Positions 13,166-45,290 of a stretch of DNA of 64,000 nt are shown here, in pieces. The position numbers and the translations under genes were made by a program. The notes under the pieces are model-generated. The model was not told the DNA's origin. It did no database searches and worked only from the letters and a program-made list of their open reading frames with translations. The stretch is from Mesorhizobium sp. M1C.F.Ca.ET.210.01.1.1 (GTDB lineage: Bacteria; Pseudomonadota; Alphaproteobacteria; Rhizobiales; Rhizobiaceae), in NCBI RefSeq assembly GCF_004791585.1, contig NZ_SRUU01000002.1, forward strand, positions 248,001 to 312,000, in the 5' to 3' direction. The number at the start of each line of letters is the position of its first letter. Positions within the stretch are counted from its first letter, which is position 1.

Positions 13166-14051
13166 TGTCATCGTCGTTGGCGGCAGCTTCGCCGGGCTCT
13201 CCGCCGCCATGCAGCCGGCGCGGGCGCGGCGCAAAGTGCTGGTGATCGATGCCGGCGAGCCGAGGAACCGGTTTGCCGGGCATTCGCATGGTTTTCTCGG
13301 CCAGGACGGACGCACGCCATCCGCCATTCTCGACGAAGCCAGGCGGCAATTGCTCGCCTACCCTACCGCCAGGATCATTCCCGGACGTGCTGAACGGGCC
13401 GCCATCACCGGAAACGGCTTCGAGGTCCGGACGGAGGATGGAGAGACATTCGAGGCGACGCGGCTAGTGCTCGCCACCGGCGTGCGCGACATCCTGCCGA
13501 ATGTTCCGGGGCTGGCCGGCTTGTGGGGCAGGAAAGTGCTGCACTGTCCGTACTGCCATGGCTACGAGGTGGCCGGCGGCCCGCTCGGCGTGCTGGCAAC
13601 CGGGCCGATGTCGATGCATCAGGCGGAGCTGATCTCGGACTGGGGCGCCGTCACACTTTTCGCCAATGGCCAGTTCGAGCCGGACGTCGACCAGAGGCGA
13701 ACCTTGGAAAACCGCAACATCCTCTTCGAGCAGTCGAAGGTGATCGAGCTGCAGGAGAATGACGCAGGCGGGCTCGTCGTCCGGCTGGATGACGGTCGGA
13801 GCGCTGGTGTGCGGGCGGTCTTCACCGCGCCGCACAACGTGATGGCGAGCCCACTCGCCGAACAGCTGGGCTGCGCCTTCAACGAAGGCCCGCTCGGCCG
13901 GGCGATCGTGGTTGACGACAAGCAGCAGACGTCCGTGCCCGGTGTCTTCGCGGCCGGCGACGCGGCCCGGCTGATGCACAACATCGCTTTCGCGGTATCC
14001 GGCGGCGCCATGGCCGGGGTCGCCGCGCATCAATCGCTGGTCTTCGGCTAG
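13155..14051 (+). CDS. Thioredoxin-reductase-like NAD(P)/FAD-dependent oxidoreductase
   Basis: This 298-residue flavoprotein has an N-terminal FAD-binding fold (VIVVGGSFAGLSAA, about 5-18), VLATGVRDILP, a CPYC redox pair (C131, C134) and a C-terminal FAD motif GVFAAGDAARL. It therefore belongs to the pyridine nucleotide-disulphide family close to thioredoxin reductase, but the second nucleotide motif is degenerate (GVLATGPMSMHQA instead of a GxGxxA loop), so the electron donor is uncertain. It overlaps the Rrf2 gene by 11 bases. Its TAG stop overlaps the stop of the convergent DeoR gene by four bases. Confidence 0.85.
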   Translation: MHYDVIVVGGSFAGLSAAMQPARARRKVLVIDAGEPRNRFAGHSHGFLGQDGRTPSAILDEARRQLLAYPTARIIPGRAERAAITGNGFEVRTEDGETFEATRLVLATGVRDILPNVPGLAGLWGRKVLHCPYCHGYEVAGGPLGVLATGPMSMHQAELISDWGAVTLFANGQFEPDVDQRRTLENRNILFEQSKVIELQENDAGGLVVRLDDGRSAGVRAVFTAPHNVMASPLAEQLGCAFNEGPLGRAIVVDDKQQTSVPGVFAAGDAARLMHNIAFAVSGGAMAGVAAHQSLVFG

Positions 14052-14812
14052 GCCGCGGCGATGCTGAGCCGCGCCCCAGCCTGGCTGAGCGCGGCGGCGA
14101 TGTCCGCCGGCGGCGGCTGGTCGGTGGCGAGTTCGGAAAAGCCGTCGAAGCCGCAGACCTGAACCAGCCCCTGCCTGCCGAACTTGGTGTGATCGGTGAT
14201 GACCAGCGAGCGCTGGCCGCGCGACAGCACCATGCGGGCGAATTCGGCCTCCTCCAGCTCATAATCGGTGAGGCCGGCGACGGCATCGACGGCGCCGATG
14301 GAGATGACGGCGTGGCTGACCGAGAACCGGCTGACGAAATCGATCGCGGTGACGCCGAAGGCCGCGCCTGAATCGCTGCGCAGCTCGCCGCCTGCCATAT
14401 AGACCTTGTTGCCGTTCACCGTCGCCAGCGTGCGGGCGATGTCGGACGAGTTGGTGACCACAGTCAGGCGGCGATGGCCAAGCAGCTCGCGCGCCAGGAA
14501 CGAAGTGGTGGTGCCGGTGTCGAGCATGATCGACTCGCCGTCGCGGATGGTGGCCGCGACCATGCGGGCAATCAGGCGCTTGGCCTCGGCATTCTCGCGC
14601 ATGCGGCGCTCGAACGGTGCCTCGCCGGCCATCGACGGCAGGCTGACGGCGCCATGCATCTTGAGCAACGCCCCGTCATCGGTGAGCGGTTTGACGTCGC
14701 GGCGAACGGTCTCCAGCGACACGCCGAGCCGCTCTGCCAGGCTGGCAATGGTGATGGTGCCCTCCTCGTTGAGGAGCCGCAGGATCTCGCCATGCCGTTT
14801 CGAGTGGATCAT
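14048..14812 (-). CDS. DeoR/GlpR-family transcriptional regulator
   Basis: The 254-residue repressor has a DeoR HTH (RHGEILRLLNEEGTITIASLAERLGVSLETVRRDVKPL, about 5-42) and the DeoR C-terminal sensor domain (about 75-230) with MLDTGTTTSFLARELL and the VTNSSDIA block that binds phosphosugars or phosphorylated metabolites. The ATG at 14812 gives the standard N-terminus; an upstream in-frame reading adds 28 atypical residues. It is divergent from the kinase/flavoprotein operon starting at 15211 and is the natural candidate for its control. The inducer could be the phosphorylated product of the adjacent kinase, as DeoR proteins usually respond to phosphorylated intermediates. Confidence 0.86.
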   Translation of the reverse strand: MIHSKRHGEILRLLNEEGTITIASLAERLGVSLETVRRDVKPLTDDGALLKMHGAVSLPSMAGEAPFERRMRENAEAKRLIARMVAATIRDGESIMLDTGTTTSFLARELLGHRRLTVVTNSSDIARTLATVNGNKVYMAGGELRSDSGAAFGVTAIDFVSRFSVSHAVISIGAVDAVAGLTDYELEEAEFARMVLSRGQRSLVITDHTKFGRQGLVQVCGFDGFSELATDQPPPADIAAALSQAGARLSIAAA

Positions 14813-14915
14813 GTGGATGCCCAGGTTCTTGACCGATTCTAAGGCATTCCTAACGCTTTTAAAGAAATTGCTTCTATATTCGGGCAAAACACCCAAAAAA
14901 GGTCACAGCGCTTTA

Positions 14916-14944
14916 TTGACAGCAATGTCTCGCTGGCGTGAGAT
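14916..14944 (+). promoter_or_regulatory. Candidate promoter for the kinase-flavoprotein operon
   Basis: TTGACA (14916-14921) and TGAGAT (14939-14944) are 17 bases apart. This is the best sigma-70-type match in the 398-base gap between the divergent DeoR gene and the kinase gene. It would give a leader of about 260 bases containing the stem-loop at 15089-15137. The -10 element is weak, as expected for a regulated promoter. Confidence 0.4.
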
Positions 14945-15088
14945 TGACGAAGTGACAGGCTCGGAACTGCCCCGGGAGGACGATGGCAGAACCACAATCG
15001 ACCGACCAGATCTTCTGGAACGTGCCTGGCGCGAGCTTTTTTCGAATCCGCGGGGGCGGATGCCGGGATCCTGAACCTGGCCAAGGGG

Positions 15089-15137
15089 CTCGTCGGTGCG
15101 GTGCGGGATATCGATCCCGGCGTCCCGCACCGACGAG
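15089..15137 (+). other. Nested perfect stem-loop in the leader of the kinase operon
   Basis: CTCGTCGGTGCGG (15089-15101) pairs perfectly with CCGCACCGACGAG (15125-15137), a 13-bp stem. Inside its loop a second hairpin, GGGAT-ATCG-ATCCC (15105-15118), forms. There is no T tract, so it is not a standard terminator. It lies 73 bases before the GTG start of the kinase gene. It may be an mRNA structure affecting expression, a protein-binding site, or the remains of a repeat. No convincing gene is seen in 14813-15210. Confidence 0.6.
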
Positions 15138-15210
15138 GCTCCTCTGTTCTCTCATCGCTTTGTCGAAAACCGGCGCCTCGTCAAAAGCCGGCTGAAGCAG
15201 GAAAGGCTCC

Positions 15211-16107
15211 GTGAACGCCCCCGTGATCGCCGAAGACCGCATCCGCGCCCTGCCCTGCTGGAACGGCAGCATCGAGATCGAGCCGCTGCCGGGAGGCTTG
15301 AGCAACGCCAACTACGTGGTCACGGACGCCGCCGGGCGGCATGTCGTGCGCTTCGGCCAGGACTTTCCGTTCCACCATGTGTACCGCGAGCGCGAGGTGA
15401 TGACGGCGCGGGCGGCACATGCGGCGGGCTTTGCGCCTGCCGTGCATTTTGCCGAGCCCGGCATTCTGGTGACCGCGTTTCTCGGCGCCCGGACCCTCCT
15501 TGCCGAGGATGTGCGCGCCGATCTCGGCCGCGTGGCGGCGCTGCTGCGCGGCTTCCATCGCGAGATGCCCAACCACGTCTCCGGCGCCGGCTTCATGTTC
15601 TGGGTGTTCCACGTCATCCGCGACTACGCCCGCACGCTGTACGAAGGCGGCAGCCGCAAGAGGGGCGAGCTGCCACGTTATCTGGCTCTGGCCGACGAGC
15701 TCGAACGGGCGCAGAAGCTCCTGCCGATCGTCTTCGGCCACAACGATCTTTTGCCGGCGAACATCCTCGACGACGGCAAGCGGCTGTGGCTGATCGATTT
15801 CGAATATGCCGGCTTCAACACGGCAATGTTCGATCTCGCGGGCGTCGCGTCCAATGCCAGCATGAGCGATGACGAGTCCTTCGCCTTCCTGACCGCCTAT
15901 TTCATGAAGGAGCCGGATGGCGAGATCCGCCGGTCGCATGCCGCCATGCAATGCGCTTCGCTGCTGCGCGAGGCGATGTGGAGCATGGTCTCCGAGCTCT
16001 ATCTCGACGCGCCCGGCATCGACTACGTCGCCTACACCGAAGAGAACCTGGTGCGGCTCGACGCGGCGCTGGACAACTACCGGACGAAATACGGGACCAA
16101 GCCATGA
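15211..16107 (+). CDS. Choline/ethanolamine-kinase-like phosphotransferase (LicA/ChoK family)
   Basis: The 298-residue kinase has an N-terminal lobe with GGLSNANYVV (about 31-40), the catalytic loop VFGHNDLLPANIL (about 174-186, HxDxxxxN) and the metal-binding LIDFEYAG (about 193-200). These are the choline/ethanolamine kinase motifs, so a small amino alcohol or related hydroxylated compound is the likely substrate. The GTG start at 15211 has an AGGAAAGG site upstream. The stop overlaps the flavoprotein start (ATGA, 16104-16107), which ties phosphorylation to oxidative demethylation. A second paralogue lies at 19315. Confidence 0.85.
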   Translation: MNAPVIAEDRIRALPCWNGSIEIEPLPGGLSNANYVVTDAAGRHVVRFGQDFPFHHVYREREVMTARAAHAAGFAPAVHFAEPGILVTAFLGARTLLAEDVRADLGRVAALLRGFHREMPNHVSGAGFMFWVFHVIRDYARTLYEGGSRKRGELPRYLALADELERAQKLLPIVFGHNDLLPANILDDGKRLWLIDFEYAGFNTAMFDLAGVASNASMSDDESFAFLTAYFMKEPDGEIRRSHAAMQCASLLREAMWSMVSELYLDAPGIDYVAYTEENLVRLDAALDNYRTKYGTKP

Positions 16108-18557
16108 CGTTGCCCAGCCATGCCGGGGTCGTCGTCATCGGCGGCGGCATCATCGGCTGCTCGACCGCCTATCATCTGGCGCGCGACCATAAGGCCGACG
16201 TGGTGCTGCTGGAGCAGGGCAAGCTGACCTCGGGCTCGACATGGCACGCAGCCGGCCTGGTCGGGCAGTTGCGCTCTTCGGCCTCGATCACGCGCGTGCT
16301 CAAATATTCGGTCGAGCTCTACAAGGGCCTCGAGGCCGAGACCGGGCTTGCCACCGGCTGGAAGATGACCGGGTGCCTCAGGCTCGCCACCAACGCCGAC
16401 CGCTGGACCGAGTTCAAGCGGCTGGCGACGACGGCAAAAAGCTTCGGCATGGACATGCAGCTTCTGTCGCCGGCCGAGGTGAAGCGCATGTGGCCGCTGA
16501 TGGAAACCGGCGACCTCGTCGGCGCCTCCTGGCTGCCGACCGACGGCCAGGCGAGCCCCTGCGACATCACCCAGTCGCTCGCCAAAGGCGCGCGCATGTA
16601 CGGCGCGAAGCTCTACGAGGATGTGCGCGTCACCGGTTTCGAGATGAAGGACGGCCGCATCACGGCGGTGAAGACCGAGAAAGGCGACATCGCCTGCGAC
16701 AAGGTGGTGAACTGCGCCGGACAATGGGCGAGGCAGGTCGGCGCGATGGCCGGCATCAACGTGCCGCTGCAGCCGGTCAAGCACCAATACATCATCACCG
16801 AGAAGATCGAAGGGCTCGCCAACGACGCGCCGACGATCCGCGATCCCGACCGCCGCACGTATTTCAAGGAGGAGGTCGGCGGGCTGGTGATGGGTGGCTA
16901 CGAGGCGAACCCGCAGGCCTGGGCCACCGGTCATCCCGGAGGCGACGTGCCCAGCGACTGGGAGTTCCGCCTGTTCGACGACGATTACGATCACTTCGAA
17001 CAGCATATGCATCAAGCGATCGAGCGCGTGCCCGCGCTGGCCGATGTCGGCGTCAAGCAGATGATCAACGGGCCGGAAAGCTTCACGCCTGACGGCAATT
17101 TCATCCTCGGCGCAGCACCGGAATGCTCCAACATGTTCGTCGGCGCCGGCTTCAACGCCTTCGGCATCGCATCGGGCGGCGGCGCCGGCTGGGTGCTGGC
17201 GCAGTGGGTGGTCGATGGCGAGGCGCCGCTCGATCTGTGGGTGGTCGATATCCGGCGCTTTTCCAACCTGCACCGCGACCGCGACTGGGTCCGCGACCGC
17301 ACGCTTGAAGCCTATAGCAAGCACTACACGATCGGTTTCCCGCACGAGGAGTATCTCTCGGGCCGGCCGCGCATCGTCTCGCCGCTCTTTGAGCGGCTGA
17401 AGGCGCACCGCGCCGTGTTCGGCTCCAAGCTCGGCTGGGAGCGGCCGAACTGGTTCGCTCCCGACGGGATGGAGCCCGAAGACATCTATTCGATGGAGCG
17501 GCAGAACTGGTTTTCGCCCGTTGGCGACGAACACCGGCATGTGCGCGAGAAGGTCGGCATCTTCGACCAGTCCTCGTTCGCCAAATACGAGATGACCGGC
17601 ACTGATGCGCTAAAGGCGCTCGACTGGATCTGCGCCAACGATGTCGACAAGCCGGTCGGACGGCTGACCTACACGCAGCTTCTCAACACGCGCGGCGGCA
17701 TCGAGGCGGACCTCACCGTGGCGCGGCTTGGCGAGGACCGGTTCTACATCGTTACCGGCACCGGCTTCCGCACCCATGATATGTCATGGATCGGCGACCA
17801 TATCGGCGAAGGTCTCGAGGCCAGGCTGAAAGACGTCACCGAGGAGTTCGGCACGCTGTCGCTGATGGGGCCGCGCGCCCGCGATGTGCTGTCGGCGGTG
17901 ACGGACGCCGATGTCGCCAATGCTGCCTTCCCCTTCGGCCACGCGCGCGAGATCCAAATTGCCGGCCACACGGTGCGGGCGCTGCGCGTGACCTATGTCG
18001 GCGAGCTTGGCTGGGAACTGCATGTGCCGATCGCCGCCACCGGCGAGATCTTCGACGCGCTGATGGCGGCAGGAGAACAAGACGGCATCCGGCCGGTCGG
18101 CTACCGGGCGCTGGAATCGCTTCGGCTGGAGAAAGGCTATCGCGCCTGGGGGTCGGACATCACGCCAAACGACACGCCGCAGGAAGCAGGTCTCGGCTGG
18201 GCGGTGAAGCTTCGCAAGAACACCGATTTCGTCGGGCGGCGGGCGCTGGAGGCGGCCGCCGGTAAGCCGCTGACAAAACGCTTTGCCGGCTTCACGGTCG
18301 ACGATCCGGATATCGTTCTGGTCGGACGCGAGACGATCCTGCGCAATGGCGAGCCGGTCGGCTATCTCACCAGTGGCGGCTACGGGTACACGCTCGCGAA
18401 GAACATCGGCTACGGCTATGTCCGCAACCCCGACGGCGTCGGCGACGATTTCCTTGCCTTGGGCGACTACGAGCTGGTGGTGGCGATGGAGCGCACGCCG
18501 GCAAAAATCCATCTCGAGCCGATGTATGACCCGGGTGGTGAGAAGATAAAGGCCTGA
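16104..18557 (+). CDS. Dimethylglycine/sarcosine-dehydrogenase-like FAD and GcvT fusion protein
   Basis: The 817-residue protein has an N-terminal FAD-dependent DAO domain (about 8-370; GVVVIGGGIIGCSTAYHLA) followed by a linker domain and a glycine-cleavage-T-like tetrahydrofolate domain (about 430-700) with a C-terminal barrel (about 710-810). H48 in GSTWHAAG matches the position of the histidine that carries covalent FAD in dimethylglycine dehydrogenase. The expected reaction is oxidative N-demethylation, with the one-carbon unit passed to tetrahydrofolate. The substrate is unknown; coupling to a choline-kinase-like gene makes a simple glycine betaine route less certain. The start is the ATG overlapping the kinase stop; longer readings run into the kinase. 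Confidence 0.87.
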   Translation: MTLPSHAGVVVIGGGIIGCSTAYHLARDHKADVVLLEQGKLTSGSTWHAAGLVGQLRSSASITRVLKYSVELYKGLEAETGLATGWKMTGCLRLATNADRWTEFKRLATTAKSFGMDMQLLSPAEVKRMWPLMETGDLVGASWLPTDGQASPCDITQSLAKGARMYGAKLYEDVRVTGFEMKDGRITAVKTEKGDIACDKVVNCAGQWARQVGAMAGINVPLQPVKHQYIITEKIEGLANDAPTIRDPDRRTYFKEEVGGLVMGGYEANPQAWATGHPGGDVPSDWEFRLFDDDYDHFEQHMHQAIERVPALADVGVKQMINGPESFTPDGNFILGAAPECSNMFVGAGFNAFGIASGGGAGWVLAQWVVDGEAPLDLWVVDIRRFSNLHRDRDWVRDRTLEAYSKHYTIGFPHEEYLSGRPRIVSPLFERLKAHRAVFGSKLGWERPNWFAPDGMEPEDIYSMERQNWFSPVGDEHRHVREKVGIFDQSSFAKYEMTGTDALKALDWICANDVDKPVGRLTYTQLLNTRGGIEADLTVARLGEDRFYIVTGTGFRTHDMSWIGDHIGEGLEARLKDVTEEFGTLSLMGPRARDVLSAVTDADVANAAFPFGHAREIQIAGHTVRALRVTYVGELGWELHVPIAATGEIFDALMAAGEQDGIRPVGYRALESLRLEKGYRAWGSDITPNDTPQEAGLGWAVKLRKNTDFVGRRALEAAAGKPLTKRFAGFTVDDPDIVLVGRETILRNGEPVGYLTSGGYGYTLAKNIGYGYVRNPDGVGDDFLALGDYELVVAMERTPAKIHLEPMYDPGGEKIKA

Positions 18558-18572
18558 TCCGCGGAAGGCAGG

Positions 18573-19205
18573 TCAGGCGACGCGCAGCACCAGGCCACGG
18601 CTCGGCACCGTGTCGGCCTCACCGGGCATCGAGGCGTAGGGCCGCGACTCCTCGACGCGCGTTATGACGCCCCGTTTCTCCAGGTCGGCGATGCGCTCGG
18701 CAAAGCCGGCCTGCCAGAGCGTGTTCTTCACCGTCAGCACGATGATGCCACCTGGACGGCAGATACGGATAAGCTCGTCCAGCCCCTCAACGCCGACATG
18801 GCCCGAGGTGAAGACGCCGGCCGAGACGATGCCGGCATAGGCGCCGTCGGCGAAGGGCAAGGCCGCGCCCAGCGCCAGGCGATGCAGCGCCGTATACACG
18901 CCTTTGGCGGCCGCCTTGTCCAGCATGCCTTGCGAGATGTCGAGCGCCTCGACTTGCGGGTAGCCGGTGATGGCCAGCCACTCGCCGATCAGGCCGGTGC
19001 CGGCGCCGGCATCGAGCACAGGCTCGGCGCCGCGCGGCAGATGGCGGGCGAGCAGCGCGAGACAGATCGTTGGGTGGCGATAACCGGCGGCCGACATGTC
19101 GGCGTCATAGGTCTCGGACCACCTGTCGTAGATCGCCGCCACTTCGTCCGGCCGGGTTGACGCATAGGCGGCGCTCAGCGCGCTGTTGTGCTTGCCGTCC
19201 GTCAT
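18573..19205 (-). CDS. Class I SAM-dependent methyltransferase
   Basis: This 210-residue methyltransferase shows motif I at VLDAGAGTGLIGEWLA (about 63-78), the strand-2 acid in ALDISQGML, and GLDELIRICRPGGIIVLTV (about 137-155). The N-terminal YDRWSETYDADM helix is typical of Williams-Beuren-syndrome-27-like small-molecule methyltransferases. The ATG at 19205 follows GGAGGGG, and longer readings lack this. It sits opposite the flanking kinases in a cluster with a demethylating flavoprotein, so it may act on the same metabolite, but this is only positional evidence. Confidence 0.82.
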   Translation of the reverse strand: MTDGKHNSALSAAYASTRPDEVAAIYDRWSETYDADMSAAGYRHPTICLALLARHLPRGAEPVLDAGAGTGLIGEWLAITGYPQVEALDISQGMLDKAAAKGVYTALHRLALGAALPFADGAYAGIVSAGVFTSGHVGVEGLDELIRICRPGGIIVLTVKNTLWQAGFAERIADLEKRGVITRVEESRPYASMPGEADTVPSRGLVLRVA

Positions 19206-19314
19206 TGCCCCTCCGCGCCCCTCCACCGATTCGCGTCCCCCATGGTAGCCAAGCGGCGAAAACTGTGGAACCGTTCCGCCATTAAAGATGGCGTGATGGT
19301 AAAGGGGGATGACG

Positions 19315-20211
19315 ATGGACGACGCGCGCGCGGCGCTGGCCGCCATTCCAGCGCTGGCCGGTTATGACGGACCGCTGGAGCGGCTGGGTGGCCTGACCAA
19401 CCTCGTCTACAGGGCGGGTGACATCTGCCTGCGCATTCCCGGCAAGGGCACGGAGGAATACATCAACCGCGCCAATGAGGCGGTCGCGGCGTACGAGGCG
19501 GCGAAGGCCGGCGTCAGCCCGGAGGTGCTGCATGTCGATGCCGCAAGCGGCATTATGGCGACGCGCTTCATCGCCGGCGCCGAGACGATGTCGCCGGAGA
19601 AGTTCAAAACGCGCAAGGGGAGCCCGGCCCGCGCGGGCGAGGCCTTCCGCAAGCTGCACAACTCGGGCGCCGTCTTTCCTTTCCGCTTCGAGCTGTTCGC
19701 GATGATCGACGACTATCTGAAGGTGCTGTCCACCAAGGATGTCGCGCTGCCTCCCGGCTATCACGACGTGGTGCGCGAAGCCGCAGTGGTGCGCGAAGCA
19801 CTTGCCGCCCATCCGATCCAGCTTGCGGCCTGCCATTGCGATCCGCTCTGCGAGAATTTCCTCGATACCGGCGAGCGGATGTGGATCGTCGACTGGGAAT
19901 ATTCCGGCATGAACGATCCGCTGTGGGATCTCGGCGACCTCTCCGTCGAAGGCGGGTTCGACGTCGTCCAGGACGAAGAGATGATGCGCGCCTATTTCGG
20001 CGGCAAGGCGAAGCCGGCCGAGCGCGGCCGCATCGTCATCTACAAGGCGATGTGCGATCTTCTGTGGACGCTGTGGGGTCTGATCCAGCTTGCCAACAAC
20101 AACCCGGTCGACGATTTCAGAGCGTATGCCGACGGACGCTTCGCCCGCTGCAAGGCGCTGATGGAGACGAAGGAATTCTCGCTCCATCTGGCGGCAATAC
20201 GAGAGGGCTAG
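19315..20211 (+). CDS. Second choline-kinase-like phosphotransferase
   Basis: This is a 298-residue protein of the same family as the gene at 15211 but clearly diverged. Motifs are GGLTNLVYRAGD (about 24-35), the catalytic loop AACHCDPLCENFL (about 176-188, HxDxxxxN) and WIVDWEYSGMNDP (about 195-207). CHCDPLxxNFL and VDWEYSG are closer to genuine bacterial choline kinases than the first copy. GGGGG at 19304-19308 abuts an ATG at 19309, so the next in-frame ATG at 19315, with six bases of spacing, is preferred. The TAG stop overlaps the convergent transporter stop by four bases. It is divergent from the small methyltransferase, across 109 bases. Confidence 0.86.
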   Translation: MDDARAALAAIPALAGYDGPLERLGGLTNLVYRAGDICLRIPGKGTEEYINRANEAVAAYEAAKAGVSPEVLHVDAASGIMATRFIAGAETMSPEKFKTRKGSPARAGEAFRKLHNSGAVFPFRFELFAMIDDYLKVLSTKDVALPPGYHDVVREAAVVREALAAHPIQLAACHCDPLCENFLDTGERMWIVDWEYSGMNDPLWDLGDLSVEGGFDVVQDEEMMRAYFGGKAKPAERGRIVIYKAMCDLLWTLWGLIQLANNNPVDDFRAYADGRFARCKALMETKEFSLHLAAIREG

Positions 20212-21131
20212 TTGACGCCCTTCGGGACGTTCTCCGGCGGAACCGCGGTTTCCACCACCTTCTGACGGTGGAAGATGAAGATGCCGGCGAGCACGACGAT
20301 CGCCGAGCCGGCCAGTAAGCGCGGGCTGGGCATATCGCCGAAGAAGACCAGACCGAAGACAATGGCCCACAGAAGCAGGCTGTAATGCAGCGGCGCCAGC
20401 GTCGAGGCAGGCGCCAGCTTCAGCGCCCGGGTGATCATTAGATGGGCGGCGCAGGAGACGACGCCGAGCAAAAGCATGGCGCCGAAATCGAGCGCGGTGG
20501 GGGTTCGCCAGGCGCCGATGGTGAGAACGCCGCCGACAATCAGCGTGCCGATGGTCTGCCAGGTGACAAGTGTCGTGTCGCTCGTTCCACGCAAGCGCCG
20601 GCCGAGGATGATGGCGAAGCCGAAGGCGATGCTGCCGATCAGCGCATAGGTCGACGACAGCGAGAACGCCGCCGGCGAAGGCTTCAGGATGATCAGCACG
20701 CCGCAGAAGCCGACCAGGATCGCCAGCCAGCGGCGCCAGCCGACCTTCTCGCCGAGCAGGAGGTGGGAGAGCGCCGCGACATAGATCGGCCCGGCCATGT
20801 AGAAGCTCATCACGTCGGCGAGCGGCAGATAGACGACGGCGGCGTAGAAGAGCCCGGTGTCGAGCGTGGTTGCGACAACGCGCAGGAGCTGCAGCATCGG
20901 CTTCTCAATGTCGAACAGCTTGCCCGCACCCTGGCTGGCGATCATCGGGCCAAGCACGATGAAGGCGCCGATGGAGCGGATCAGCACCACCTGGCCGACG
21001 GAGAAGGAAGCAACCAGCCATTTGCCCATCGCGTCGTTGAGCGCAAACATGAAGTCGCCGGCCAGCATCAAAAGGATGCCGGCGAGCAGGACGTTCCTGA
21101 TCGTGAAATTGCGGGCGAAGGACTGAGCCAT
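20208..21131 (-). CDS. DMT-superfamily (EamA) transporter
   Basis: The 307-residue membrane protein has ten predicted helices in two EamA repeats (about 15-145 and 155-285). GEKVGWRRWLAILVGFCGVLIIL near the end of the first repeat is a typical EamA signature. Such transporters move small metabolites or amino acids, usually outward; no substrate can be assigned. It is convergent with the second choline-kinase-like gene and shares a four-base stop overlap with it, so it may belong to the same functional neighbourhood. Confidence 0.85.
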   Translation of the reverse strand: MAQSFARNFTIRNVLLAGILLMLAGDFMFALNDAMGKWLVASFSVGQVVLIRSIGAFIVLGPMIASQGAGKLFDIEKPMLQLLRVVATTLDTGLFYAAVVYLPLADVMSFYMAGPIYVAALSHLLLGEKVGWRRWLAILVGFCGVLIILKPSPAAFSLSSTYALIGSIAFGFAIILGRRLRGTSDTTLVTWQTIGTLIVGGVLTIGAWRTPTALDFGAMLLLGVVSCAAHLMITRALKLAPASTLAPLHYSLLLWAIVFGLVFFGDMPSPRLLAGSAIVVLAGIFIFHRQKVVETAVPPENVPKGVN

Positions 21132-22495: not shown

Positions 22496-22664
22496 CTGTC
22501 GTCGTCCCTCCATAGAATCGGCCGCTATCGTGGCCGAAAAGACATCCCGCCATAGCCACTTGCTTGTCTTGGCGGCGAACGGTTCCATCCGTCGGCAACA
22601 CGCTCTATAAGCCGCCTCTCGCCCTCGTGGCGAATCCGAAATTCATAGCCATGGGATCGGCCGT

Positions 22665-24419
<1,755 letters not shown>

Positions 24420-24460: not shown

Positions 24461-26305
24461 TTACTCCGGCACTTTCCTCACCGCCCCCTTATCGGCGCTG
24501 GTGGCGAAGGCGGCGTAGGCGCGCAACGCGGTCGTCACCTTGCGCTTGCGTATTTCTGCCGGCTTCCAGGCGTCCGCGCCCTTCGCCGCCATCGCCTTGC
24601 GGCGCGCGCCGAGCTCGGCCTCGCCGACGGCCAGATGGATCTTGCGGTTCGGGATATCGATCTCGATCGTGTCGCCTTCCTGGACGAGCCCGATCAGCCC
24701 ACCTTCGGCGGCTTCCGGCGAGACATGGCCGATCGACAGGCCGGAGGTGCCGCCCGAGAAGCGGCCGTCGGTGATCAGCGCGCAGGCTTTGCCGAGGCCC
24801 TTCGACTTCAGATAGCTGGTCGGATAGAGCATTTCCTGCATGCCGGGACCGCCGCGCGGACCCTCGTAGCGGATGACGACGATGTCGCCCGCCTTGATCT
24901 CGTTGCCGAGAATCGCCTTGACCGCATCGTCCTGGCTCTCGAAGACGCGAGCCGGACCGGTGAACTTCAGGATCGACTCGTCGACGCCGGCGGTCTTCAC
25001 GATGCAGCCGTCGAGCGCCAGGTTGCCTTTCAGCACGGCAAGGCCGCCATCCTTCGAGAACGGCGTCTTTGCCGAGCGGATGACGCCCGTCTCGCGGTTC
25101 GTGTCGAGCTCGTCCCAGCGGCGATCCTGGCTGAAGGCGACCTGCGTCGGCACGCCGCCTGGGGCGGCGCGGAAGAACTCGCGCACGTTCTCGGCCGAGG
25201 TGCGGGCGATGTCCCAATGGTCGAGCGCTTCGCCGAGCGTTGCCGTATGCACGGTCGGCAGGTCGCGGTTGATCAGGCCTGCGTCGTCCAATTGGCCGAG
25301 GATGGCCATGATGCCGCCGGCGCGGTGGACGTCCTCCATATGCACGTCGGCCATGGCCGGCGCCACCTTGCACAGCACCGGCACCTTGCGCGACAGCCGG
25401 TCGATGTCCTCCATTGTGAAGTCGACCTCGCCCTCATGCGCGGCAGCGAGGATGTGCAGCACCGTGTTGGTCGAGCCGCCCATGGCGATGTCGAGCGCCA
25501 TGGCGTTCTCGAAGGCACCCTTGGTGGCGATGCTGCGCGGCAGCGCGCTGTCGTCCTCCTGCTCGTAATAGCGCTGGGCGAGATCGACGATCAGATGCCC
25601 GGCCTCGACGAACAGGCGCTTGCGGTCGGCATGGGTGGCCAAGGTCGAGCCGTTGCCGGGCAGCGACAGCCCAAGCGCCTCGGTCAGACAGTTCATCGAA
25701 TTGGCGGTGAACATGCCGGAGCAGGAGCCGCAGGTCGGGCAGGCAGAGCGCTCGATGACCTTGACGTCCTCGTCGGAGATCTTGTCGTCGGCGGCGGCGA
25801 CCATGGCGTCGACCAGGTCGAGCGCCTGCGCCTTGCCGGCCAGCACCACCTTGCCGGCCTCCATCGGACCGCCGGAGACGAAGACGGTCGGGATGTTGAG
25901 GCGCAACGAGGCCATCAGCATGCCGGGCGTGATCTTGTCGCAATTCGAAATGCAGACCATGGCGTCCGCGCAATGCGCGTTGACCATGTATTCGACGGAG
26001 TCGGCGATCAGTTCGCGCGACGGCAGCGAATAGAGCATGCCGTCGTGACCCATGGCGATGCCGTCATCGACGGCGATGGTGTTGAACTCCTTGGCGACGC
26101 CGCCGGCCTTCTCGATCTCGCGCGCGACCAGCTGGCCAAGGTCCTTCAGGTGTACGTGGCCCGGCACGAACTGGGTGAAGGAATTGACGACCGCGATGAT
26201 CGGCTTGCCGAAGTCACTGTCCTTCATGCCGGTGGCGCGCCACAGGCCGCGGGCGCCGGCCATGTTACGGCCATGGGTGGTGGTGCGGGAACGATAGGCA
26301 GGCAT
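24461..26305 (-). CDS. ilvD: Dihydroxy-acid dehydratase
   Basis: IlvD is a 614-residue Fe-S enzyme that converts 2,3-dihydroxy-isovalerate and its C6 homologue to 2-oxo acids in valine, leucine and isoleucine synthesis. The long form is typical of proteobacterial [4Fe-4S] enzymes. Cluster ligands are visible in [12 protein letters not shown] and [19 protein letters not shown]. The N-terminal [20 protein letters not shown] and [17 protein letters not shown] are family signatures, and [19 protein letters not shown] marks the C-terminal region. The ATG at 26305 has AGGAA upstream. It stands alone, not in an ilv operon. Confidence 0.96.
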
Positions 26306-26447
26306 CGCATTCCTTGCTGGCTGGCCGCGCCGGTGCGAGGCGGGCGCTGATCTTTGGTCGGCAGCGGTTATAGCCGTCACGGTGCCGCGTTGCCACAATT
26401 TTGCGCTGCGCCAGGAAGCCTGGTTGACCTCCCATGTTTGCTCGTAT

Positions 26448-26479
26448 ATAGCCAATTAGGTATATATCCATTTGGCTAT
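26448..26479. promoter_or_regulatory. Tandem-palindrome operator of the ArsR-family operon
   Basis: ATAGCCAA (26448-26455) and TTGGCTAT (26472-26479) are perfect reverse complements bracketing an AT-rich core. The block can also be read as two imperfect ArsR-type sites, ATAGCC-AATT-AGGTAT and ATATCC-ATTT-GGCTAT, in mirror arrangement. It ends five bases before the ArsR start codon and overlaps the only plausible promoter (TATATATCC-rich), as expected of an auto-repressed regulator. Confidence 0.7.
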
Positions 26480-43791: not shown

Positions 43792-43872
43792 CCCTGACTT
43801 CCCGACGCAGGTCCGCGCCAGTGCCACGACACTATTAGCCGGATAATAATTCGTCATAAAGCCGTAATAAAT

Positions 43873-43938
43873 GGCACAAATGGCACATTTTCATATAAAA
43901 ATTATCGTCCTTAATGTATCCATTGTGCAATTTGTGCC
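43873..43938. promoter_or_regulatory. Inverted and direct repeats of GGCACAAAT in the porin upstream region
   Basis: GGCACAAAT (43873-43881) and ATTTGTGCC (43930-43938) are perfect reverse complements 48 bases apart. A second partial half-site, TGGCACA (43881-43887), follows the first directly, and TTGTGCAA (43923-43930) precedes the second. The whole stretch 43840-43990 is AT-rich against a GC-rich background. This looks like an operator region for porin control; the rest of the 371-base gap (43792-44162) holds no gene that I can support. Confidence 0.55.
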
Positions 43939-44162: not shown

Positions 44163-45290
44163 ATGAACATCAAGAGCCTTCTACTCGGCTCCGCTGCGAC
44201 GCTGATCGCAGTTTCGGGCGCCCGCGCCGCCGACGCGGTCACCGTCGCCGAGCCGGAACCGGCCGAATACGTCAAGATCTGCGACGTCTATGGCGCGGGT
44301 TACTTCTACATCCCCGGCACCGAGACCTGCCTGCGCGTCGGCGGCTACGTCCGCTATGACGCCGGCTTCGGCGATGTCGGCTCCTTCGATGGCCGCACGG
44401 CCACCGATCACGAGGACGGCGACGCGCAAAACAGCTGGAAGAAGAACGCCCGCTTCAACCTAAAGACATGGACCGGCCAGGAAACCGAACTCGGCACGTT
44501 GAAGACCTATACCGAGACCAAATTCAACTTTCCGAACGGTGGCGCCACCAGCGTGTCGCTGAGCTTTGCCTGGATCCAGCTTGGCGGCCTGCGCGTCGGT
44601 AAGGACGAAACGCCTTACGATCAGTTCATCGGCTATGCCGGCAACGTCATCCAGGACACGATCATCCCGTACGGCATCAAAGACACCAATGTCGTCAGCT
44701 ACTACTTCGACGCCGGCAGCGGCTTCTCGGGCGTGATCTCGCTCGAAGAGGGCTCGGACGGTTCGGGCATATCCGGCACGATCGACAGCTATGTCCCGCA
44801 TGTCGTCGGCGGTTTGAAGTACAAAGGCGACTGGGGCGCGGTCACTGGCGTCGTCGCCTATGACAGCAACTACGAGGAAGTGGCCGGCAAGGTTCGCTTG
44901 GACGTCAACGTCACCAAGGAACTGTCGCTGTTCATCATGGGCGGCTACGGCACCGACGACAATCTCCGCGACGATGCGGGTAACGTCATCGACGCTCATG
45001 GCCGCGGCTTCTACAAGCCGTGGGGCGGCAACTGGGCTGTGTGGGGTGGCGGCACCTACAAATTCAACGAGAAGACGGCGTTCAACCTCCAGGCCTCGGC
45101 TGACGACGACAAGAACTACGCGCTCGCAGCCAACGTCGCCTACACTATCGTTCCGGGCTTCACGATCACGACCGAAGTCGACTGGGATCATTTCGCCCAC
45201 TTCGGCGACGGCACCTCGGCCGTCAACTGGACCAAGGCCGACAAGAAGAACAGCGTCGGCGGCATCGTCCGCTTCCAGCGCTCCTTCTGA
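44163..45290 (+). CDS. Outer-membrane porin (Porin_2 family)
   Basis: The 375-residue protein has a Sec signal (MNIKSLLLGSAATLIAVSGA, cleavage after A-R-A near 22) and a mature barrel typical of Hyphomicrobiales porins: AEYVKICDVYGAGYFYIPGTETCLRVGGYVRYD with the conserved cysteine pair, repeated amphipathic strands, and the C-terminal Phe of IVRFQRSF required for outer-membrane insertion. It forms diffusion channels in the outer membrane. The ATG follows GGAG within a long AT-rich 5' region. A strong intrinsic terminator follows, fitting high expression. Confidence 0.93.
   Translation: MNIKSLLLGSAATLIAVSGARAADAVTVAEPEPAEYVKICDVYGAGYFYIPGTETCLRVGGYVRYDAGFGDVGSFDGRTATDHEDGDAQNSWKKNARFNLKTWTGQETELGTLKTYTETKFNFPNGGATSVSLSFAWIQLGGLRVGKDETPYDQFIGYAGNVIQDTIIPYGIKDTNVVSYYFDAGSGFSGVISLEEGSDGSGISGTIDSYVPHVVGGLKYKGDWGAVTGVVAYDSNYEEVAGKVRLDVNVTKELSLFIMGGYGTDDNLRDDAGNVIDAHGRGFYKPWGGNWAVWGGGTYKFNEKTAFNLQASADDDKNYALAANVAYTIVPGFTITTEVDWDHFAHFGDGTSAVNWTKADKKNSVGGIVRFQRSF

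Follow-up and report, generated by a model that had tools for sequence, protein, structure and literature searches.

The window analysed here is a stretch of 64,000 nucleotides from Mesorhizobium sp. M1C.F.Ca.ET.210.01.1.1 (contig NZ_SRUU01000002.1, positions 248,001 to 312,000), and the system in question is a cluster of six genes at 14048-21131, built around a kinase gene, K1, and a flavoprotein gene, FAD. We found that the K1-FAD neighbourhood is conserved beyond chance, and we incline to the view, from sequence comparison, that the pair forms the centre of a pathway degrading N,N-dimethyl- and/or N-methylethanolamine. K1 (15211-16107, plus strand) encodes a phosphotransferase of the choline/ethanolamine-kinase family (Pfam APH 71.4 and Choline_kinase 60.9 bits, both above cut-off), while FAD (16104-18557, plus strand) encodes an 817-residue FAD/GcvT protein of the dimethylglycine dehydrogenase (DMGDH) family, a predicted N-demethylase of a phosphoester. 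The stop of K1 and the start of FAD overlap in ATGA, and divergent from K1 lies the gene of a DeoR/GlpR-family regulator (14048-14812, minus strand), in which both family domains are present (DeoRC 149.7 and HTH_DeoR 53.9 bits, both above cut-off); its frame is open to 14896, and the ATG at 14812 is the likely start since the NCBIfam profiles that match over their full length do so from residue 29-34 of the long frame onward. A preliminary description of this DNA had already placed a DeoR gene divergent from a kinase gene that overlaps an 817-residue FAD/GcvT gene, and open reading frame and profile analysis of the 64-kb window confirmed all six genes at their positions. To a wider proposition we give slightly less than even credence, namely that these flavin/folate demethylases act on phosphate esters and not on carboxylates, converting kinase-tagged N-methylethanolamines to methylenetetrahydrofolate (CH2-THF) and phosphoethanolamine, within a complete aerobic route to serine/pyruvate that extends from rhizobia to small-genome, probably marine, Alphaproteobacteria.

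Conservation was followed in four sets of loci. The genus set holds the best 80 of 427 contig stretches encoding a K1 relative (78 of the 80 from Mesorhizobium, some contigs short); the family set holds 53 stretches around K1 matches in genomes of the GTDB family, where K1 was matched at E <= 1e-20 in 59 of 151 genomes; the class set holds 20 stretches from genomes matching the K1 alignment, which was matched at 1e-40 in 31 of 289 genomes of the class; and nine plasmid stretches, 8 of them distinct, were added. K1 and FAD were co-directional, their match ends separated by less than 150 bp, in 145/145 alphaproteobacterial loci where both were recognised (79 genus, 45 family, 12 class and 9 plasmid), which becomes 143/143 distinct loci since two pairs, L215/L219 and L070/L111, are repeats. 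The DeoR gene was divergent from K1 in 131 of 132 loci (129 of 130 distinct). Conservation of the gene order, which the preliminary description had named as a check, held well in the 80 nearest loci, where DeoR and FAD were each found in 79, the second kinase K2 in 74, the methyltransferase MT in 73, the transporter EamA in 75 and a cytosine-deaminase neighbour in 74, but farther out the stable core is reduced to DeoR|K1-FAD.

The domain order of the flavoprotein, DAO-FAO_M-GCV_T-GCV_T_C with each domain above cut-off, is that of the DMGDH family, and among solved structures mitochondrial DMGDH and dimethylglycine oxidase (1pj5) are its nearest relatives. With both it shares the domain order, the flavin histidine and the catalytic residues; it differs from them in lying in a separate clade, in carrying Lys87 and Arg250 and in forming an operon with a kinase gene. 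In a tree of 86 sequences the K1-linked FAD proteins formed one clade by topology alone, bar A_L202, which was left out of the residue counts because the frame chosen for it fell outside the clade, at the end of a long branch. This clade stands apart from human DMGDH, from the paralogues of the same genome (the nearest being C179b) and from FAD2, a second flavoprotein found at some related loci. His48, the flavin-linking residue, His227 and Tyr253 were kept in 66/66 clade sequences and Asp536 in 65/66, the remaining one reading X; His227, Tyr253 and Asp536 we take to be the equivalents of His225, Tyr259 and Asp552 of dimethylglycine oxidase, with catalytic roles. Lys87 was invariant in the 66 clade sequences and in 10 FAD2 sequences, eight comparison sequences having His, Arg or Asn in its place, while Arg250, three residues before Tyr253, occurred in 97% of the 66, was mixed in FAD2 and was absent from the eight. 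The extra positive charge of these two residues would suit a phosphate.

The main clue to the function of K1-FAD is a gene run on plasmid pPABY1 of Salipiger abyssi. There an IMPase-type gene and DeoR, on the divergent side, face SBP-ATPase-permease-K1-FAD (SBP, substrate-binding protein), followed by EtfB-EtfA-FolD-PurU-amidohydrolase-GS-ALDH-FeADH-GlyA-serine ammonia-lyase-HAD. Electron transfer flavoprotein (ETF) accepts flavin electrons, FolD with PurU turns CH2-THF into formate, and GlyA with serine ammonia-lyase leads from glycine plus CH2-THF to pyruvate. The four-gene ethanolamine block within the run matches the operon type reported from Phaeobacter, which comprises an amidohydrolase, a TRAP transporter, an ethanolamine gamma-glutamylase and two dehydrogenases (PMC10132767). 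Blocks similar to that of this gamma-glutamylation pathway (GGAH, ETAGA, GAADDH, GETADH) occur in Salipiger and on contig C173 of the window's own genome; the published pathway begins with TRAP-imported ethanolamine, whereas here its input would come from a kinase/demethylase pair and an ABC transporter. The Salipiger GS is 61-70% identical to the GS of TRAP-containing ethanolamine blocks on five other plasmids, from Paracoccus, Qingshengfaniella, Rhodobacteraceae SC52, Marinovum and Ruegeria B32. Close to the module, an IMPase-type gene is present in L147, L157, the Ruegeria plasmids L214 and L256, and Salipiger; in Ruegeria conchae one that is 67% identical to that of L214 has a DeoR gene on one side and the ethanolamine block on the other. 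This R. conchae stretch (L245), itself without K1-FAD, has its ethanolamine genes beside DeoR, IMPase-type and EamA genes with no TRAP transporter annotated, and its EamA was rejected as a relative of the window's, giving no BLAST match at 1e-3. In two 1.4-Mb genomes (L194, L195), too, FAD has ETF genes downstream of it on its own strand.

On the proposed route K1 would phosphorylate the hydroxyl of an N-methylated ethanolamine, and the phosphate would take the place of dimethylglycine's carboxylate as the anionic group. The DMGDH-type flavoprotein would then oxidise the N-methyl, passing electrons to ETF and the carbon onto tetrahydrofolate (THF) as CH2-THF; the phosphoethanolamine may be dephosphorylated by the IMPase-type enzyme of some relatives, the ethanolamine would go to glycine by the published gamma-glutamyl route, and GlyA could join glycine and CH2-THF into serine. 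We infer the substrate and the order of these steps from the gene identities, the conservation of the pair, the flavoprotein clade with its catalytic residues, the ethanolamine genes linked to it in one species and co-occurrence. Phosphorylation followed by demethylation had been suggested in the preliminary description, and the idea gained support from the ProU-type transporter, the ethanolamine genes, FolD/PurU/ETF, the phosphatase-type gene, the clade and the Mth precedent discussed below, while the activities are still what we infer.

The genome of the window encodes eight long FAD/GcvT proteins, the window's own included. Two of the genes lie on contig C179 with DAO (SoxB-like), SoxD, SoxA-type and homocysteine S-methyltransferase-family genes, a layout that appears to be the one expected for dimethylglycine and sarcosine, so that use of dimethylglycine probably does not depend on the window flavoprotein. 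The ethanolamine block on C173, a contig other than the window's and so unlinked to it, is 46% (amidohydrolase), 53% (GS), 56% (ALDH) and 65% (Fe-ADH) identical to that of Salipiger; the proposed product of the window route would therefore have an onward pathway, and Mesorhizobium may use this unlinked block. Across the family the GS of the ethanolamine block was present in 58 of 59 K1-positive genomes and 52 of 92 K1-negative ones (Fisher p 9.5e-10), the only K1-positive genome without it being 76% complete. Tallied by genus the figures were 42/43 and 37/66 (p 4.5e-7), and a SoxA control gave 54/59 and 68/92 (p 0.010).

K2 (19309-20211, plus strand) is a further choline/ethanolamine-kinase-family protein, closely related to PDB 3dxq (606 bits over 299 residues), an entry named just as a family protein. 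That the two kinases belong to one family, as the preliminary description had it, is borne out by Choline_kinase scores of 60.9 bits for K1 and 62.5 bits for K2 against a gathering score of 29, but as paralogues they are distant, being just 27% identical. The kinase motifs and the DMGDH layout noted there were likewise upheld by profile matches and alignments: H177, D179, N184 and D196 were invariant in 17 K1 sequences, with E or D at position 198, and K2 has both motifs, HxDxxxxN and DxE/DxD. The amine site of LicA-type kinases is formed by Y197, W251, W254, Y268 and E213 according to a published study (PMC4364537), and in our alignment K2 retains all five residues. MT (18573-19205, minus strand) is a class I S-adenosylmethionine-dependent methyltransferase of 210 residues (Methyltransf_11 41.4 bits), and EamA (20208-21131, minus strand) is an EamA/DMT-type transporter by profile match whose membership in the cluster is uncertain. 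These genes do follow FAD as was first described, but MT and EamA are on the strand opposite to K1, FAD and K2, and therefore at least three transcription units are present.

Among 100 K2 loci (one a repeat) MT occurred in 88 and FAD2 in 11, never together, and one locus had neither; MT was found in 0/20 class loci. FAD2, about 43% identical to FAD where measured, was noted at L038, L087, L105, L114, L121-L123, L139, L163, L203 and L218. Rhizobium rosettiformans has the order transporter-K1-FAD-FAD2-K2, which may be read as two kinase-demethylase pairs. Genome G118 (L163) yielded no K1 orthologue and keeps K2 with transporter, FAD and FAD2, which suggests that K2 is able to replace K1. At L153 and L155 a K1-like gene (45-46%) occurs with an MT-like gene (41-45%), the FAD gene being absent, and next to them stand relatives of two genes that border the window cluster as well, the Rrf2 and the TrxR-like gene.

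Members of the DeoR/GlpR family generally bind a phosphorylated effector, and the regulator of the cluster probably responds to a phosphorylated intermediate in its control of K1-FAD, much as the preliminary description had proposed a phosphorylated inducer. By phylogenetic footprinting of the DeoR|K1 region of Mesorhizobium we identified a conserved A-rich element immediately 5' of TTGACA, the predicted DeoR operator (14881-14908, plus strand), which is followed by a candidate promoter with the -35 box TTGACA at 14916-14921 and TGAGAT at 14939-14944. A matrix built from 46 distinct sites, mostly of near relatives, scored 34.9 at this operator, the next best score across the 64 kb being 11.2, and its best scores upstream of MT/K2 and of EamA were -9.9 and -7.3. 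The predicted operator thus stands solely before K1, and MT, K2 and EamA are therefore probably outside the DeoR regulon, contrary to the single regulon of six genes first proposed. The operator pattern was recognised in 63 of 80 genus regions and 20 of 38 family regions, and is therefore less clear beyond the genus. Overlapping weak matches to the matrix were also noticed at 43840-43888, upstream of a frame at 44163-45290 read as porin-like. Between DeoR and K1 an alignment of 41 sequences revealed a conserved leader with a long hairpin (15041-15140, plus strand). An RNA element of Rfam type was rejected here, as no Rfam family matched the leader over cut-off and the folding energy of 14950-15215 was not significant (z-score -1.5); a small conserved open reading frame was looked for in the leader, and the frames differed among the genomes compared, none being consistent.

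A ProU-type ABC transporter accompanies the module in part of the more distant relatives, its SBP being found in 0/80 genus, 19/53 family, 7/20 class and 5/8 distinct plasmid loci; in the relatives inspected the SBP gene is joined by those of an ATPase and a fused permease, all of them placed between DeoR and K1. The best solved relative of the SBP is 4xz6 (244 bits, phmmer), deposited as a glycine betaine/proline ABC transporter protein, which we take to be TmoX, the trimethylamine N-oxide binder of Ruegeria; the tryptophan of its 'NWTP' is aligned to the tyrosine of 'VYAP' in the SBP. Compared with known systems, the permease passes the ChoXWV permease cut-off, while the SBP of the relatives falls far below the ProX cut-off. 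No remnant of SBP or permease was matched in the window at 1e-5. EamA was present in 75 of the 80 genus loci and SBP in none of those 80, and in the family EamA stood beside the module at 1 of 19 loci with the transporter versus 5 of 34 without it; EamA is a possible stand-in for the absent ABC transporter, a weak fit to these counts. Two further arrangements were noted. Salipiger abyssi carries a second transporter of the same type, 41-58% identical, directly after the long operon (L219:25582-29001), and in L194, a small genome with a contig of 1,410,127 bases, a GMC oxidoreductase, a binding protein, a permease, K1 and FAD are grouped, with no ATPase frame separating binding protein and permease.

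Of the genes bordering the window cluster, the cytosine-deaminase-like neighbour is followed by a permease in relatives L114, L112, L117-L119 and L251; this permease resembles a putative B6 ABC transporter at 228 bits, below the cut-off of 465. The frames at 22605-24356 and 24461-26455, both on the minus strand, were considered doubtful as neighbour genes; the first runs antisense to 22665-24419, where a real gene is likely.

Several observations weigh against a methylated ethanolamine route as we propose it. K1 retains only three of the five LicA residues in the alignment, with Val260 for Trp254 and an invariant Asn215 for Glu213, and its amine may therefore differ from choline. Fourteen loci, one at a contig end, carry K1 with no FAD gene at >=55% identity, which makes the K1 family wider than the module. 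Complete linkage to ethanolamine genes was seen in one species, Salipiger; a Shinella GS next to DeoR was rejected as an ethanolamine gene at 30% identity; the ETF genes of L194 lie beyond an intervening opposite-strand gene and may be a general ETF locus; and the IMPase-type gene occurs in just 2/53 family and 0/20 class stretches and gave no match in the window at 1e-5. The MTTB family, an unplanned second control, was also enriched, in 56/59 K1-positive versus 54/92 K1-negative genomes (p 4.5e-7), so that K1-positive genomes appear generally rich in methylamine genes and the association with GS is just modestly specific. Moreover, the p values count genomes as independent, ignoring phylogeny and genome size, and the K1-positive set includes G118, with K2 only, and G089, a fragment.

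The missing glutamate and tryptophan of the choline site in K1, and an SBP that is a divergent relative of 4xz6, would equally suit the same chemistry on another N-methylated alcohol, such as a methylated 1-amino-2-propanol, an amino sugar alcohol or an N-oxide. We consider this unlikely, though worth keeping in mind, as the Salipiger ethanolamine block with GlyA and serine ammonia-lyase suits a C2 amino alcohol and K2 retains a choline-type site. Nearly the same low weight falls to an ordinary dimethylglycine/sarcosine dehydrogenase with K1 merely co-transcribed or making an unrelated phosphoester. The closest solved structures and the common catalytic residues speak for it, as does Roseobacter literature that calls H4F-binding or similar genes DMGDH/sarcosine dehydrogenase, a comparison with our clade by label alone; yet it is weakened by the separate clade and by the C179 locus, which in the same genome already joins SoxB-like, SoxD and SoxA-type genes with two other FAD/GcvT genes, and it leaves the strict K1 linkage and a Salipiger run of ethanolamine, not betaine, genes to be accounted for.

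Choline itself could be the input if K1/K2 made phosphocholine, an MttB-type cobalamin enzyme encoded elsewhere took the first methyl, and FAD (with FAD2) took the others. In Eubacterium limosum MthB does give dimethylaminoethanol phosphate from phosphocholine (PMC12155760), and the MTTB family occurs in 110/151 family genomes, among them the 56 of 59 with K1, with 7 copies in the window's genome. Against this, no MTTB protein is encoded in the window cluster, whose demethylase is of the FAD/GcvT kind, and among the MTTB matches listed none of those compared lay closer than about 63 kb to K1 (G105), the module loci themselves not having been scanned for MTTB; we regard choline input as improbable. 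A salvage or lipid-head-group module, in which the flavoprotein would trim phosphocholine supplied by the kinases and MT, has in its favour the pairing of MT with K2 in 88 of the 100 K2 loci. It is very hard to credit beside genes for transport, ETF, FolD, PurU and ethanolamine oxidation, which indicate catabolism, and given that MT is missing from the class loci and gives way to FAD2 in 11/100 K2 loci.

Returning to the methylated ethanolamine route, the closest known principle to K1-FAD is the Mth route of E. limosum: MthK phosphorylates choline, and the cobalamin enzyme MthB demethylates phosphocholine, not choline, to dimethylaminoethanol phosphate, the authors proposing that phosphorylation converts the alcohol to an acidic quaternary amine for the enzyme (PMC12155760). 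There too, in MthK/MthB/MthC/MthA, a choline kinase with LicA motifs acts first and the methyl carbon goes to THF. The difference lies in the demethylase, which in that acetogen is of the MttB type (PF06253), yields methyl-THF and stops at dimethylaminoethanol phosphate, whereas here the starting compounds would be tertiary or secondary amines, from which an FAD/GcvT protein would yield CH2-THF; an MttB-type gene beside the kinase was not found in the window cluster, other loci being unscanned for MTTB locally. No description of a flavoprotein version of phospho-activated demethylation was found in the titles and opening of abstracts of the open-licence PMC papers listed by our searches, in line with the earlier statement that no described pathway has this set of genes. 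To our knowledge none has been proven in which a flavoprotein demethylates after phosphorylation, and phospho-activated demethylation by a DMGDH-type enzyme is a likely, unproven, mechanism for the pair.

Methylated ethanolamines arise, among other ways, from lipid turnover, and their aerobic fate seems little studied, so that the module supplies named genes for it. Anaerobically they have a source in E. limosum, which grows by turning choline into dimethylaminoethanol (PMC12155760). If our reading is true, the principle of phosphorylating and then demethylating extends to a second enzyme class, and the clade genes now labelled dimethylglycine dehydrogenase are misnamed, their annotations perhaps hiding another activity. 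The module further offers testable ligands for the DeoR regulator and for the amine transporter.

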